From Chlorobiaceae bacterium (GTDB lineage Bacteria; Bacteroidota; Chlorobiia; Chlorobiales; Chlorobiaceae): a DNA stretch of 55,159 nucleotides. Under the pieces are notes generated by a model. The model was given only the letters and a program-made list of their open reading frames with translations. It ran no database searches and had not been told where the DNA came from. Position numbers and translations under genes: made by a program. The stretch covers positions 1 to 55,159 of the forward strand of contig JAAXVR010000020.1 in NCBI GenBank assembly GCA_013335405.1, written 5' to 3'. Of this stretch, positions 19,921 to 41,596 are shown in pieces (positions within the stretch are counted from its first letter, which is position 1; every line of letters starts with the position of its first letter).

Positions 19921-20637
19921 ATGTTTGCAGATCACAGAATCGAAATCAGGCGAAGAGGAACAGCCCTCCTCTGCCTGGTGTTTTCCCTCCTGGGGCCGGT
20001 TGCTTCCGGTCTGCTTGCGGCTGAAGAAACATACAATGCGCGCCTGATCCGGCAGTACATCGAAGAAGATAAAGTTTATTTACTGGAAAATATCCGGCAA
20101 AAATTCTCCCGCCCAGCCGAAAAACTTGTCATAGAAGCCCTGCTCTGCGAAGACGGTCCGAAGTCCCGGACTCTCTACACCAGGCAGCTCAGGGATTATC
20201 CGGATCCGGAGCTCGACCGGATCAGCACGTCACGCATTGAAGCGTACAACCTCGCCCTGAACGGCACCTCTTCGCCACACCGGCTTTCACAGACGGTGAA
20301 TGCCGGTAGCAAGGTGACCGCTGGGACAAAAAGAAGTGCAGAAACATCAGGGAGTGCAGCGATAACGGGATCCGCAGGAAATGATGCCCGGTGGAAGACG
20401 AAAGAGGGTCCGGAAATAACAACAGAAGGCTATACCCTGCAGTTCGGAAGTTTCGGCAGCCTCCAGAATGCCGAAACACTGGCCCGGAAGATATCGTATT
20501 ATTCCGGTGCCGAAATCATCCGGCAGGAAAACATCTACAGGGTTCGCCTGAAAAAGACCTGGCCGACCAGGGAAGAGGCGGCCGATGCCGGAAGACAACT
20601 CCCCTACGACGCATTCGTCGTTCCATCGAGGCAGTGA
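19921..20637 (+). CDS. SPOR domain protein, exported
   Basis: About 238 residues from ATG 19921. A basic n-region is followed by a hydrophobic segment (TALLCLVFSLLGPVASGLLA), forming a signal peptide or anchor ending near AAEE. A helical middle and a low-complexity Ser/Thr/Gly-rich linker follow (about 120-165), then a C-terminal SPOR domain (YTLQFGSFGSLQNAETLARK onwards). SPOR domains bind denuded septal peptidoglycan glycans, so the protein probably acts in the periplasm at division sites. An earlier in-frame ATG at 19846 would put 25 extra residues before the signal and leave no promoter room next to ispE. The sigma-54 activator follows 34 bp downstream. Confidence 0.82.
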   Translation: MFADHRIEIRRRGTALLCLVFSLLGPVASGLLAAEETYNARLIRQYIEEDKVYLLENIRQKFSRPAEKLVIEALLCEDGPKSRTLYTRQLRDYPDPELDRISTSRIEAYNLALNGTSSPHRLSQTVNAGSKVTAGTKRSAETSGSAAITGSAGNDARWKTKEGPEITTEGYTLQFGSFGSLQNAETLARKISYYSGAEIIRQENIYRVRLKKTWPTREEAADAGRQLPYDAFVVPSRQ

Positions 20638-20671
20638 ACATGCTCCAGGGAAACGAGGAAAGGATGGCGCA

Positions 20672-21871
20672 ATGAAACGTCAGACGAACATCATAGGGCA
20701 ATCGCCGCTCATCATACAGCTCAAGCAGCTCGCCCTCCAGGTTGCCGATACCGACATCCCGGTCCTGATCGTGGGCGAAACCGGATCGGGAAAGGAAGTG
20801 CTGGCGCGTTTCATTCACGCCAACAGCCGCCGGGCTGATAAAAGCTTCATTCCGGTCAACTGCGGAGCGATTCCCTCCGGCATTCTCGAATCGGAACTCT
20901 TCGGCCACGAAAAAGGTGCGTTCACGGGTGCGGTGCAAAGCAGAAAAGGGTATTTCGAAAGCGCTGACAAAGGCACGATCTTCCTTGACGAAATCGGTGA
21001 AATGCCGCTCGAGACACAGGTAAAATTCCTGAGGGTCCTCGAATCCGGCGAATTCCAGCGTGTCGGGTCGTCAGAATCAGTCTATTCCGACGCCCGCATC
21101 ATCGCCGCCACAAACAGGAACATGTATCAGGCAGTAGCGGAAAAAAACTTCCGCGAAGACCTTTTTTACCGGCTCCGCAGTGTCGAGCTCCAGATACCGC
21201 CGCTCAGGGAAAGGAATCGCGACATTCTCCTCCTTGCTGACAATTTCGTGCGCGAATTCCAGCAGAAGCATAAAATCGTCTTCGAAGGGTTCAGCCCCGA
21301 TGCGGCGGAAATCATGATGCGCTATCCCTGGCCCGGAAACGTAAGGGAATTGAGGAATCTCATCGAATCGCTTCTCGTGCTTGAAAAAGGGAAATACATA
21401 ACTCCCGAAATCCTCGAGAAGCATCTCGTGCAGCGCAACAGGTACAAGAGCCTCGTACACGATCCGACAAAATCCGAAAAACACGAACTCCAGGTCATCT
21501 ACAGCAGCATCCTGCAGCTCCGCCAGGAAGTCGGCGAAATACGCCAGATGCTGCAGCATCTCCTGCACCCCCTCTACCAGTCCCAGCCCAGGCCACAGCT
21601 CCTGCTGCCCGGCTCCAGCGAAGTCTACTCCCCGGAGAACTCCGGCCCGGGATCGAATACCCCCGAGACCCAGCCCGAAAAAGAGATGGAAATTCTTCAT
21701 TCGCTGGACGATCTGGAAAGGAAAGCGATCGAACAGGCCCTCGAAAGCTGCGGAGGCAGCAGAAGAAAAGCCGCCCGGTCGCTCGGCATCACGGAAAGGA
21801 CTCTCTACAGGAAAATCAAATCCTACGGCATCCAGAGCAAGGATCCTTCAGCACCGCCGCTGGATGCGTGA
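20672..21871 (+). CDS. Sigma-54-dependent transcriptional activator without sensory domain
   Basis: A 399-residue bacterial enhancer-binding protein. The AAA+ domain starts almost at the N-terminus. It has the Walker A GETGSGKE (35-42), the sigma-54 contact loop GAFTGA (82-87), Walker B GTIFLDEIGE (101-110), and the sensor/arginine region FREDLFYRL. A variable linker rich in Gln/Pro follows (about 285-335), and a Fis-type helix-turn-helix ends the protein (SRRKAARSLGITERTLYRKI). There is no receiver, GAF or PAS domain, so its activity may be set by a partner protein, by its level, or by the linker. GAGGAAAGGA precedes the ATG at 20672. It is probably co-transcribed with the SPOR gene; its targets are unknown. 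Confidence 0.92.
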   Translation: MKRQTNIIGQSPLIIQLKQLALQVADTDIPVLIVGETGSGKEVLARFIHANSRRADKSFIPVNCGAIPSGILESELFGHEKGAFTGAVQSRKGYFESADKGTIFLDEIGEMPLETQVKFLRVLESGEFQRVGSSESVYSDARIIAATNRNMYQAVAEKNFREDLFYRLRSVELQIPPLRERNRDILLLADNFVREFQQKHKIVFEGFSPDAAEIMMRYPWPGNVRELRNLIESLLVLEKGKYITPEILEKHLVQRNRYKSLVHDPTKSEKHELQVIYSSILQLRQEVGEIRQMLQHLLHPLYQSQPRPQLLLPGSSEVYSPENSGPGSNTPETQPEKEMEILHSLDDLERKAIEQALESCGGSRRKAARSLGITERTLYRKIKSYGIQSKDPSAPPLDA

Positions 21872-23562: not shown

Positions 23563-23737
23563 CCCGGGTTTCAGGCAGGGCCGCCAGCAACCCGTGTCTG
23601 CCGCCGGATGATATTTTACTTTAAATATTGATATTTATTCTTTAAATTTGTTTCAAGCTGTTATTTAACAGGAATTAACTGCAAGCATTTCCTGAAAATA
23701 TCCAATCTCAACGCCACCAGAAAAAGGAGAACTCATT
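23563..23737 (+). promoter_or_regulatory. fmoA upstream region: AT-rich tract, palindrome and strong ribosome binding site
   Basis: The fmoA leader starts with a very AT-rich tract (about 23615-23670) containing two copies of CTTTAAAT, and a perfect inverted repeat CTGTTA-TT-TAACAG at 23658-23671. The inverted repeat could be an operator or a leader hairpin. A textbook Shine-Dalgarno sequence, AAGGAG at 23724-23729, stands 8 nt before the ATG, stronger than for most genes in the window and as expected for an abundant antenna protein. No -35/-10 pair can be chosen with confidence. Confidence 0.45.
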
Positions 23738-38753: not shown

Positions 38754-39695
<942 letters not shown>

Positions 39696-39730
39696 ATTCC
39701 CGAAGGGAAACGCCCTCTGAAAAGACAATG

Positions 39731-39758
39731 AAAAAAGCGGCTGCAGGGCCGCTTTTTT
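39731..39758 (+). terminator. Rho-independent terminator after mdh (possibly bidirectional)
   Basis: Stem AAAAAAGCGGC (39731-39741) pairs with GCCGCTTTTTT (39748-39758) around TGCAGG, 36 bp after the mdh stop. The stem base has A and T runs on both sides, so it can work in either direction. Its sequence closely resembles the terminator hairpins of the two RNA elements downstream, and the flank to its right may be a decayed third copy. Confidence 0.9.
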
Positions 39759-39900
39759 CATAAACATATCACCCCCGTTCCCCCCCCCTTATCGACCTGG
39801 AGTGAAGAGGATTCTCCTGTTGCACATACATAGCGTGCAGATGCATCGAATATTGTTCACGTGAACCACCCGCTCTCCATGTCGGCAGGAGAAAAAGGCA

Positions 39901-39987
39901 AAAAAAAAGCGGCCGTGCAGCCGCTTTTTTTTCGTGAACAGATGTCCCCCATTACACCTGCTCATCCCCACTGGCGTGAGGATTTTC
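39901..39987 (-). ncRNA. Structured small RNA, Chlorobi-1 motif (copy A)
   Basis: Read on the minus strand there are two hairpins and then a terminator: CCTCAC-GCCA-GTGGGG (39980 to 39965); TGAGCAG ... CTGTTCA with a G-rich loop (about 39964 to 39934); and AGCGGCTGCACGGCCGCT in an A-run/T-run frame (39932 to 39901). The first two stems need G-U pairs on the minus strand and have mismatches on the plus strand, which fixes the sense. An AT-rich TATATA box with the shared GGAATTTG lies just upstream (39988-40012). From memory, the Chlorobi-1 motif is two stem-loops followed by a terminator, found only in Chlorobi and thought to be an independent RNA. The assignment rests on structure, not on a covariance search. 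Confidence 0.7.
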
Positions 39988-40166
39988 TTATATATAGTTG
40001 CAAATTCCGTTCCAGAAAATTTACAGACTGCGCTTAATTAGTCTTTAATATCACTTTATGAAATACGTTACTGATTCCGATAAATATTTTCAGGGATTTC
40101 TCTTTTCGATTTCGAGGCAATAATGACCGGATTGGTGTATCATACTGAACCAGAGTAGATAAAAAA

Positions 40167-40203
40167 TGACACAGTTGCGCCTGATTTATGACACACCTGA
40201 CAC
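40167..40203. repeat. Cluster of three TGACAC boxes
   Basis: TGACACA-type hexamers occur at 40167, 40189 and 40198, all in the same orientation, between the two small RNA copies. Such a cluster could be a regulator binding site or the worn end of an insertion element. Nothing else in the sequence decides between these, and chance is possible. Confidence 0.3.
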
Positions 40204-40235
40204 AACTCATTGAGGGTTCGAAACGAACAACCAAT

Positions 40236-40315
40236 AAAAAAAGCGGCTTTTCAGCCGCTTTTTTGTGAACAGATGTCCCCCAACACCTGTTCATCCCCAC
40301 GGGCGTGAGGATTTC
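40236..40315 (-). ncRNA. Structured small RNA, Chlorobi-1 motif (copy B)
   Basis: A second copy of the element at 39901-39987, in the same orientation about 330 bp away. On the minus strand it has hairpin CCTCAC-GCCC-GTGGGG (40310 to 40295), a perfect TGAACAG/CTGTTCA stem around GTGTTGGGGGACAT, and terminator AAAAAAGCGGC-TGAAAA-GCCGCTTTTTT, ending at about 40236. The two copies share most bases over about 105 bp, including GGAATTTG and an AT box (TATATA) upstream, with TTGTGG 17 bp before it as a possible -35. Differences lie mainly in loops, and in stem 2 the change A to G keeps pairing. This pattern supports a conserved RNA structure. Confidence 0.7.
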
Positions 40316-40555
40316 ATATATAATCATACAAATTCCATGCCACAACACGCATTTCAACAAAAAAATTAACTGCAGCCGGGTTATTTTATCCCGGCAGCCA
40401 ACAGCAGCTGATGCGGCTACCGTAACAGGCTGCATCCCCGCACGTGATCGTCATGAATGCAGGTGATTGCCTGACCAGTCACAGGTTGGTCCGTATTCCG
40501 GATAACGGGAATTGATTACATGAGGCGTTTTTGCGGCAGGAGGGGAAATAACCGC

Positions 40556-41596
40556 TCATTCCGGTTCTTCATGGGTTATGCAGTGAATGGCCCCGAGCCC
40601 CCAGATAAGGTCCGAGCAATCGATACCGACCACGTTCCTCTCCGGAAAGCACTCCCTGATGATTGCAAGGGCAGCCCGGTCCTGCGGACAGCGATAGACG
40701 GGAACGAGAACCAGCGTGTTGGCGATGTAGAAATTCGCATAGCTTGCAGGCAGGCGTTCACCGTCGAAATAGACAGGATCCGGCATTGGAAGTTTCTTCA
40801 CCTGCAGCGGACGTCCTTCGAGGTCGGAAAAGGTTTTCAGCAGATTATAATTTTCCTGGAGAGGGAGATAGTTGTCGTCCTCCGGGTTATCCTCGACGGT
40901 TATCAGTACGGTCGATTCATCGACGAAACGCGCCATATCGTCTACATGACCGTCGGTATCGTCGCCGGCTATGCCGTCGCCAAGCCAGAGCACTTTATCG
41001 ATACCGAGGTATCTGCCGAGCTCGCGTTCAATGTCGGCGCGGGACATCGATGGATTGCGGTTCGGATTGAGCAGGCAGGACTCGGTCGTCAGGAGCAGCC
41101 CTTTGCCGTTCACGTCGATTGCGCCGCCTTCGAGCACCATTCCTGTGGAAACCACGGGAAGACCCTGGAGGGAAGCAACCCTTCGGGGCACGGCGTTGTC
41201 GTCGTCATATGGATCATACTTGCCGCCCCAGGCGTTGTACTCCCAGTCGAGAACGATCTTTTCGCGCTTCCCGTCTCGCTGCCTGAACACGTAATTCGGA
41301 CCGTGGTCCCTGCACCAGGCATCGTTGGTTGGAACCGGGTGGAAAAATATCCGGTCCATTCGAAGCTGGTCATGAGCGAGGGAGGAAATCAGCTCCCGAA
41401 CATTCCGTTCCATCGTTTCATCGAGCACATTGATATGCACTTCTTCCGAAGAGCTGAGCCAGGACGCAATTTCGGCGAAAACCACCGGAACCGGTTCGAA
41501 CTTGCCCGGCCATGAGGCGAGCTTATGGGGCCATGAAAGCCAGGTTGCCTTGTGTTGAGCCCACTCCGGGGGCATGAAATATCCAGATTCGGCCAT
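40556..41596 (-). CDS. aguA: Agmatine deiminase
   Basis: A 346-residue guanidino-group-modifying enzyme of the peptidyl-arginine/agmatine deiminase family. Hallmarks are MPPEWAQHKATWLSWPH at the N-terminus, NDAWCRDHGPNYV, WEYNAWGGKYDPYDDDN, EGGAIDVNGKG, GDDTDGHVDD and the C-terminal nucleophile Cys339 in GLGAIHCITHEEP. It hydrolyses agmatine to N-carbamoylputrescine and ammonia. The N-carbamoylputrescine amidase gene aguB lies on the same strand with only the M48 protease gene between them, which supports this substrate over peptidyl-arginine. It is the last gene of a six-gene minus-strand run, 12 bp after the protease gene. Confidence 0.93.
   Translation of the reverse strand: MAESGYFMPPEWAQHKATWLSWPHKLASWPGKFEPVPVVFAEIASWLSSSEEVHINVLDETMERNVRELISSLAHDQLRMDRIFFHPVPTNDAWCRDHGPNYVFRQRDGKREKIVLDWEYNAWGGKYDPYDDDNAVPRRVASLQGLPVVSTGMVLEGGAIDVNGKGLLLTTESCLLNPNRNPSMSRADIERELGRYLGIDKVLWLGDGIAGDDTDGHVDDMARFVDESTVLITVEDNPEDDNYLPLQENYNLLKTFSDLEGRPLQVKKLPMPDPVYFDGERLPASYANFYIANTLVLVPVYRCPQDRAALAIIRECFPERNVVGIDCSDLIWGLGAIHCITHEEPE

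Follow-up and report, generated by a model that had tools for sequence, protein, structure and literature searches.

The qrr genes of Vibrio, which encode small RNAs (sRNAs), are sigma-54-dependent. They are activated (qrr1-5) by phosphorylated LuxO, and the Qrr RNAs work with Hfq (PMC3262071, PMC2680268). In Azotobacter vinelandii, CrcZ and CrcY are made from RpoN-dependent promoters that are activated by the two-component enhancer-binding protein CbrB (PMC6292655), and in the PEP-CTERM PrsR system a sigma-54 response regulator and an upstream motif control exopolysaccharide-associated genes (Haft et al, 2006, PMC1569441). Here we describe a locus in a Chlorobiaceae bacterium (assembly GCA_013335405.1, contig JAAXVR010000020.1, positions 1 to 55,159; this whole stretch is called the window) that carries tandem copies of the Chlorobi-1 motif. 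Chlorobi-1 appears in a table of Weinberg et al, 2010 with no function given (PMC2864571), in agreement with the initial annotation of this DNA, which had called it a motif of no known function. In the literature searched, which lay outside most subscription journals and the additional file of the 2010 paper, that paper is the only one to name Chlorobi-1 or RF01696, and we found no report that links it to sigma-54. What we add to Chlorobi-1 is a predicted sigma-54 promoter, putative activator half-sites and the conservation of its locus. In our best reading, the copies would be activator-controlled, multicopy, trans-acting sRNAs with a UGGGGG loop as their active part, which work like Qrr or CrcZ/CrcY but belong to neither family.

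The Rfam model of Chlorobi-1 (RF01696, gathering score 50 bits) matches the minus strand of the window twice, at 39919-39987 (84.7 bits, E 6.8e-23) and at 40253-40316 (71.8 bits, E 1.6e-18), and the membership of both elements in Chlorobi-1 is established. The two full elements are:

39899..39987, minus strand: Chlorobi-1 copy 1, two hairpins and a terminator, fold z -6.9
40237..40316, minus strand: Chlorobi-1 copy 2, two hairpins and a terminator, loop without AA, fold z -6.7

The initial annotation had proposed this identity from the letters, and it had also described two minus-strand elements about 330 bp apart, each with two stem-loops and a Rho-independent terminator, whose pairing is better preserved on the minus than on the plus strand; all of this is borne out. 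The terminator stems lie at 39934-39899(-) in copy 1 and at 40264-40237(-) in copy 2. Folding energies of the minus strands are -46.9 and -43.6 kcal/mol for copies 1 and 2 (the z values above are against shuffles), but only -29.3 and -32.2 kcal/mol for the plus strands. Thus, the minus strands fold better and the strand argument holds. In an alignment of 63 distinct homologues, compensatory changes are found in 23 of 30 pairs and 94.5% of cells pair; not one of 500 shuffles scored as high, and structures slid along the alignment came nowhere near either value. On the minus strand, then, two covarying hairpins are followed by a terminator. The loop of hairpin 2 holds UGGGGG, which together with its flanks is the most invariant stretch of the whole alignment; each RNA carries one such G-rich loop. 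For the two copies, the initial annotation had suggested dosage or paralogous sRNAs. The AA that is missing from the loop of the aguA-proximal copy in the window is also missing in several relatives, which hints at two ancient copy types.

Upstream of most Chlorobi-1 copies we found TTGGCAYG-N4-TTGYA, the -24/-12 element of sigma-54. Matches of at least 10 of 12 bases precede 56 of the 88 copies that have enough upstream sequence, against 0.36% in shuffled upstream sequences. Their distance to the motif is near constant: 31 of the 56 share a single value, 5 are one base shorter and the rest are 6-11 bases longer. Start sites were predicted by counting 12 bases from the -12 position, which for the two commonest distance classes places them at the opening base of the Rfam motif or at the base that precedes it. 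In the window, the -24 GG and -12 GC element stands at the right distance from the start of both copies, with GT instead of GC in copy 2:

39999..40014, minus strand: predicted sigma-54 promoter of copy 1, TGGAACGGAATTTGCA, 11/12 matches, spacing to the motif as in relatives
40327..40342, minus strand: predicted sigma-54 promoter of copy 2, TGGCATGGAATTTGTA, 10/12 matches, T for C at -12
about 39987/39988 to about 39899, minus strand: predicted transcript of copy 1, start from promoter spacing
40315/40316, minus strand: predicted start of copy 2, from promoter spacing

As a positive control, the sigma-54 pattern also retrieves nifH promoters in relatives. It has seven exact matches in the window genome and the reversed pattern has none, and rpoN was detected in 81 of the 86 genomes of the family, the window genome (G000) included. 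A sigma-70 promoter was sought as well, and none was seen near the copies at the scan threshold. In a second genus the distance between promoter and motif is about 10 bases longer, and array-leading copies carry an additional helix:

L065:5067-5175 (+), L069:4965-5073 (+), L075:5537-5646 (-), L077:5553-5662 (-): extra outer helix (GGUCUGCA / UGCAGGCC) around the whole RNA

In these four copies the outer helix begins at about the predicted start, which supports the sigma-54 reading of the start site. The AT-rich upstream box of the initial annotation is there, but it is the stretch between the sigma-54 promoter and the start site, and as such it had gone unrecognised. Taken at the level of sequence, the sigma-54 promoter of Chlorobi-1 copies is strongly supported, and with a promoter and a terminator predicted for each, the two elements are probably independent small RNAs, as the initial annotation had suggested, each driven by sigma-54. 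An RNA of about 80-90 nt would be made from each copy and end at the hairpin terminator.

What could activate these promoters? An unsupervised motif search in 55 non-redundant Chlorobi-1 upstream regions returned a palindromic 17-base model, TGTcTCAtaaTGAgACA, with 238 bits against 40 in shuffled sequence; non-palindromic models mostly picked up conserved aguA sequence. The perfect palindrome TGTCTCANNNTGAGACA occurs in 0 of 86 genomes, and the sites are instead half-sites (TGANACA/TGTNTCA) at roughly helical spacings of about 10, 20-22 and 31 bases, mostly 90-190 bases upstream of the promoter. There are 82 of them upstream of Chlorobi-1, against a mean of 6.0 and a maximum of 15 in shuffled sequence. 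Other intergenic sigma-54 promoters, a class picked by hand, have 20 (2.2 in shuffles), coding or unclear sigma-54-like sites have 5 (2.6 in shuffles), and ten nifH promoters have none. The window holds one cluster:

40136..40204: four putative activator half-sites, TGTATCA at 40136 and TGACACA at 40167, 40189 and 40198 (plus-strand letters)

This cluster of 69 bp sits between the copies, so that copy 1 has it upstream and copy 2 has it downstream, and its half-site positions are kept in three relatives. It contains 4 of the window's 22 half-sites (55 kb); by a rough Poisson estimate, a cluster like this would arise somewhere in the 55 kb with a probability of 2e-5. The genome thus has rpoN and the locus has putative activator sites, although copy 2 has them only on the downstream side of its promoter. 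We envision that RpoN-carrying polymerase would wait at the -24/-12 site of each copy and that an enhancer-binding protein bound to the half-sites between the copies would remodel it.

The position of the copies is itself conserved. Their flanks and a further element in the window are:

38763..39695, plus strand: mdh (malate dehydrogenase), open reading frame and synteny, the convergent flank and a conserved neighbour
39719..39816, minus strand: decayed third Chlorobi-1 copy, 33.9 bits, its terminator hairpin now directly 3' of mdh
40556..41596, minus strand: aguA-like gene (agmatine deiminase family, named from a reading of the sequence), open reading frame and synteny, the upstream same-strand flank and a conserved neighbour

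At least one copy above the Rfam cut-off is found in 36 of the 86 genomes. In 34 of these, from two genera, copies stand beside mdh and/or aguA, always between the two genes wherever both are on the stretch examined, and the array copies always point toward the 3' end of mdh; the other two genomes have dispersed copies only. The tandem layout already described for the window is common at the same locus in relatives. The third copy was found with a model built from the Chlorobi-1 copies of this analysis, and it aligns with the intact mdh-proximal copies of two close three-copy relatives (G076 and G043): its terminator is kept, and its hairpins and promoter are degraded. This alignment gives the window genome two intact copies and one decayed copy. 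In the window's genus, genomes that lack the array still have mdh next to aguA; both genes were located in 26 of these genomes, and in 25 the gap is about 25-225 bp. Hidden diverged copies were looked for there, and the mdh-aguA stretches examined contain no TGGGGGA and no sigma-54 site. Array-less genomes of the second genus show a variable distance between the two genes, which is often longer. With the location shared by two genera, an ancestral array that was lost repeatedly seems the likelier history, and close relatives that either carry the array at this locus or cleanly lack it constitute a natural experiment. The third copy, the conserved mdh-aguA location, the sigma-54 promoters and the half-site cluster had all been overlooked by the initial annotation.

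Could the array have no function in trans, and simply provide transcription terminators or be a neutral repeat in a space flanked by convergent and codirectional genes? It does separate aguA from mdh and carry terminators, and many relatives lack it without visible harm. A terminator, however, needs no sigma-54 promoter at fixed spacing, no activator half-sites, no two further covarying hairpins and no invariant loop, and we regard this explanation as very improbable.

Copies outside the array deserve a separate mention. Three dispersed copies without a sigma-54 promoter, L068:4975 (+), L035:5041 (+) and L037:3017 (+), follow the stop codon of one gene by about 22-24 bases, as copies derived from its 3' untranslated region would. 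The second genus has in addition a diverged, dispersed Chlorobi-1 subfamily (L066, L076, L078) behind a conserved 219-residue protein, in which the UGGGGG loop is retained and no sigma-54 site is seen.

The window genome has seven clear enhancer-binding proteins. One of them stands out together with the small gene beside it:

G000:C49:10793-12265: orphan response regulator with receiver, AAA+ and Fis-type helix-turn-helix domains
L227:10787-11063 (+), counterparts in L228, L229 and L231-L235: protein of about 70 residues behind a sigma-54-like promoter

For this regulator (C49) and eight orthologs, 8 of 9 loci have a divergent sigma-54-like site before the protein of about 70 residues, which has no Pfam match. 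At this divergent promoter, seven non-redundant loci contain 14 half-sites against 0.8 expected, and a scan for exact half-sites beside the other six enhancer-binding proteins gave no cluster. Among the matches listed, C49 orthologs occur in 9 of the 26 genomes with the array and in 0 of the 25 without it (one-sided p about 0.001, calculated by hand with relatedness ignored); the search used a chimeric query with five candidates scored per genome and cannot establish absence. Tentatively, then, C49 may be the activator. It could also be another of the seven (e.g. C30 or C37), with the half-sites by the C49 gene serving a shared or a different regulator, and this we consider nearly an even call: there are seven proteins to choose from, and C49 orthologs are listed in only 9 of the array-bearing genomes. 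The dense half-sites at the promoter divergent from C49-type genes in several genomes speak against it, as do the empty scan of the other six loci and the fact that orthologs of the regulators at C37, C40, C38 and C45 are present in array-bearing and array-less genomes alike. Three further candidates were rejected. The window's own activator gene,

20573-21871, plus strand: sigma-54 enhancer-binding protein without receiver or known sensor domain,

has orthologs in genomes with and without the array and no exact half-sites nearby; NifA is not supported by the ten nifH promoters, which lack half-sites; and for PEP-CTERM PrsR, none of the seven regulators reaches the PEP_resp_reg cut-off of 502.6 bits (best score 411).

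Other genes share the half-sites. In relatives, these precede the sigma-54 promoters of an SLBB-domain polysaccharide-export gene (L138, L166), of a pilus-type operon with a PapD-like chaperone (L182), of an outer-membrane-like gene followed by a family 2 glycosyltransferase (L132, L141) and of a large adhesin-like gene (L181), the labels adhesin-like and outer-membrane-like being a reading of sequence only. In the window genome, the sole other gene with half-sites and a sigma-54 promoter codes for a secreted HExxH-motif protein (L091). This gene set suggests a surface or attachment response, and Chlorobi-1 might belong to such a surface/exopolysaccharide response, although we hold this with less than even confidence. 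PrsR offers a likeness here, with its sigma-54 response regulator, upstream motif and exopolysaccharide-associated genes, but its regulon contains no sRNA and the seven regulators miss its cut-off. The table of Haft et al, 2006 has no PEP-CTERM PrsR system in Chlorobium tepidum (PMC1569441).

Several observations weigh against sigma-54-driven, activator-controlled, trans-acting sRNAs. The copy 2 promoter has a non-consensus -12 base (GT) and no half-sites upstream, the cluster lying downstream of it. No sigma-54 site can be recognised for about one third of all copies, and these are mainly dispersed or internal. Among the matches listed (five candidates per genome), 17 of the 26 genomes with an array showed no C49 ortholog. 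Finally, pairing of the loop with the co-regulated sigma-54 mRNAs was no better than with shuffled sequence, and at this chance level the mRNAs tested are probably not the targets.

How would the RNAs act? Neither Hfq nor CsrA was found in the window genome (99.99% complete), while the control genomes were positive for both. This speaks against the two usual sRNA modes, Hfq-dependent pairing and CsrA titration, both of which we rejected, and leaves Hfq-free pairing or an unknown binding protein. We propose that the RNA would act in trans and without Hfq or CsrA, the invariant UGGGGG in the hairpin 2 loop either pairing with C-rich mRNA or binding an unknown protein, a proposal that we judge to be evenly balanced. 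Multiple copies would increase dose and response range. A different proposal is that Chlorobi-1 sequesters an RNA-binding protein by its G-rich hairpin loop and pairs with no mRNA, in the way that CsrB/RsmZ sequester CsrA or CrcZ sequesters Hfq. The strict conservation of the loop, the strong structure around it and the several copies per genome would fit, but neither of the two proteins was found, and a sponge of the CsrB/RsmZ type combines CsrA with many GGA loops per RNA, whereas each Chlorobi-1 RNA has one G-rich loop; we consider this unlikely.

For trans-acting, activator-controlled copies, the comparison with the described systems is one of design. Like the qrr genes under LuxO, Chlorobi-1 would be a group of similar sRNA genes controlled by a single NtrC-type response regulator, but Qrr uses Hfq, shows no apparent sequence relation to Chlorobi-1, and pairs with targets where pairing is only hypothesised here. 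The LuxO-type activator combined with Hfq-dependent pairing of the luxR/luxO type that marks Qrr is not seen, and only the regulatory layout is similar. CrcZ and CrcY are likewise two sRNAs from RpoN-dependent promoters with an enhancer-binding activator, but they act on Hfq-Crc. If our reading is true, this design of several sRNA genes under one enhancer-binding protein extends to a lineage whose tested genome has neither Hfq nor CsrA detected. Chlorobi-1, with no known control or role since 2010 in the literature searched, gains a candidate regulator, a predicted start site and co-regulated genes that suggest a condition. More speculatively, and we think improbably, it could be the RNA component of a lifestyle switch that operates in green sulfur bacteria without Hfq or CsrA. 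An orphan sigma-54 response regulator would then induce the sRNA copies along with genes for surface polysaccharide, pili and adhesins, and other mRNAs would be switched as the UGGGGG loops pair directly with their C-rich sites.

Two minor observations were made along the way. A sigma-54-like promoter precedes an hsp20-like gene in several Chlorobium genomes (L085, L128, L135, L164, L167), and the hsp20-like gene with such a promoter adjoins dnaK in L085 and L160. The window also contains another Chlorobi motif of the 2010 survey:

23635-23694, minus strand: Lnt RNA (RF01711), 78.2 bits
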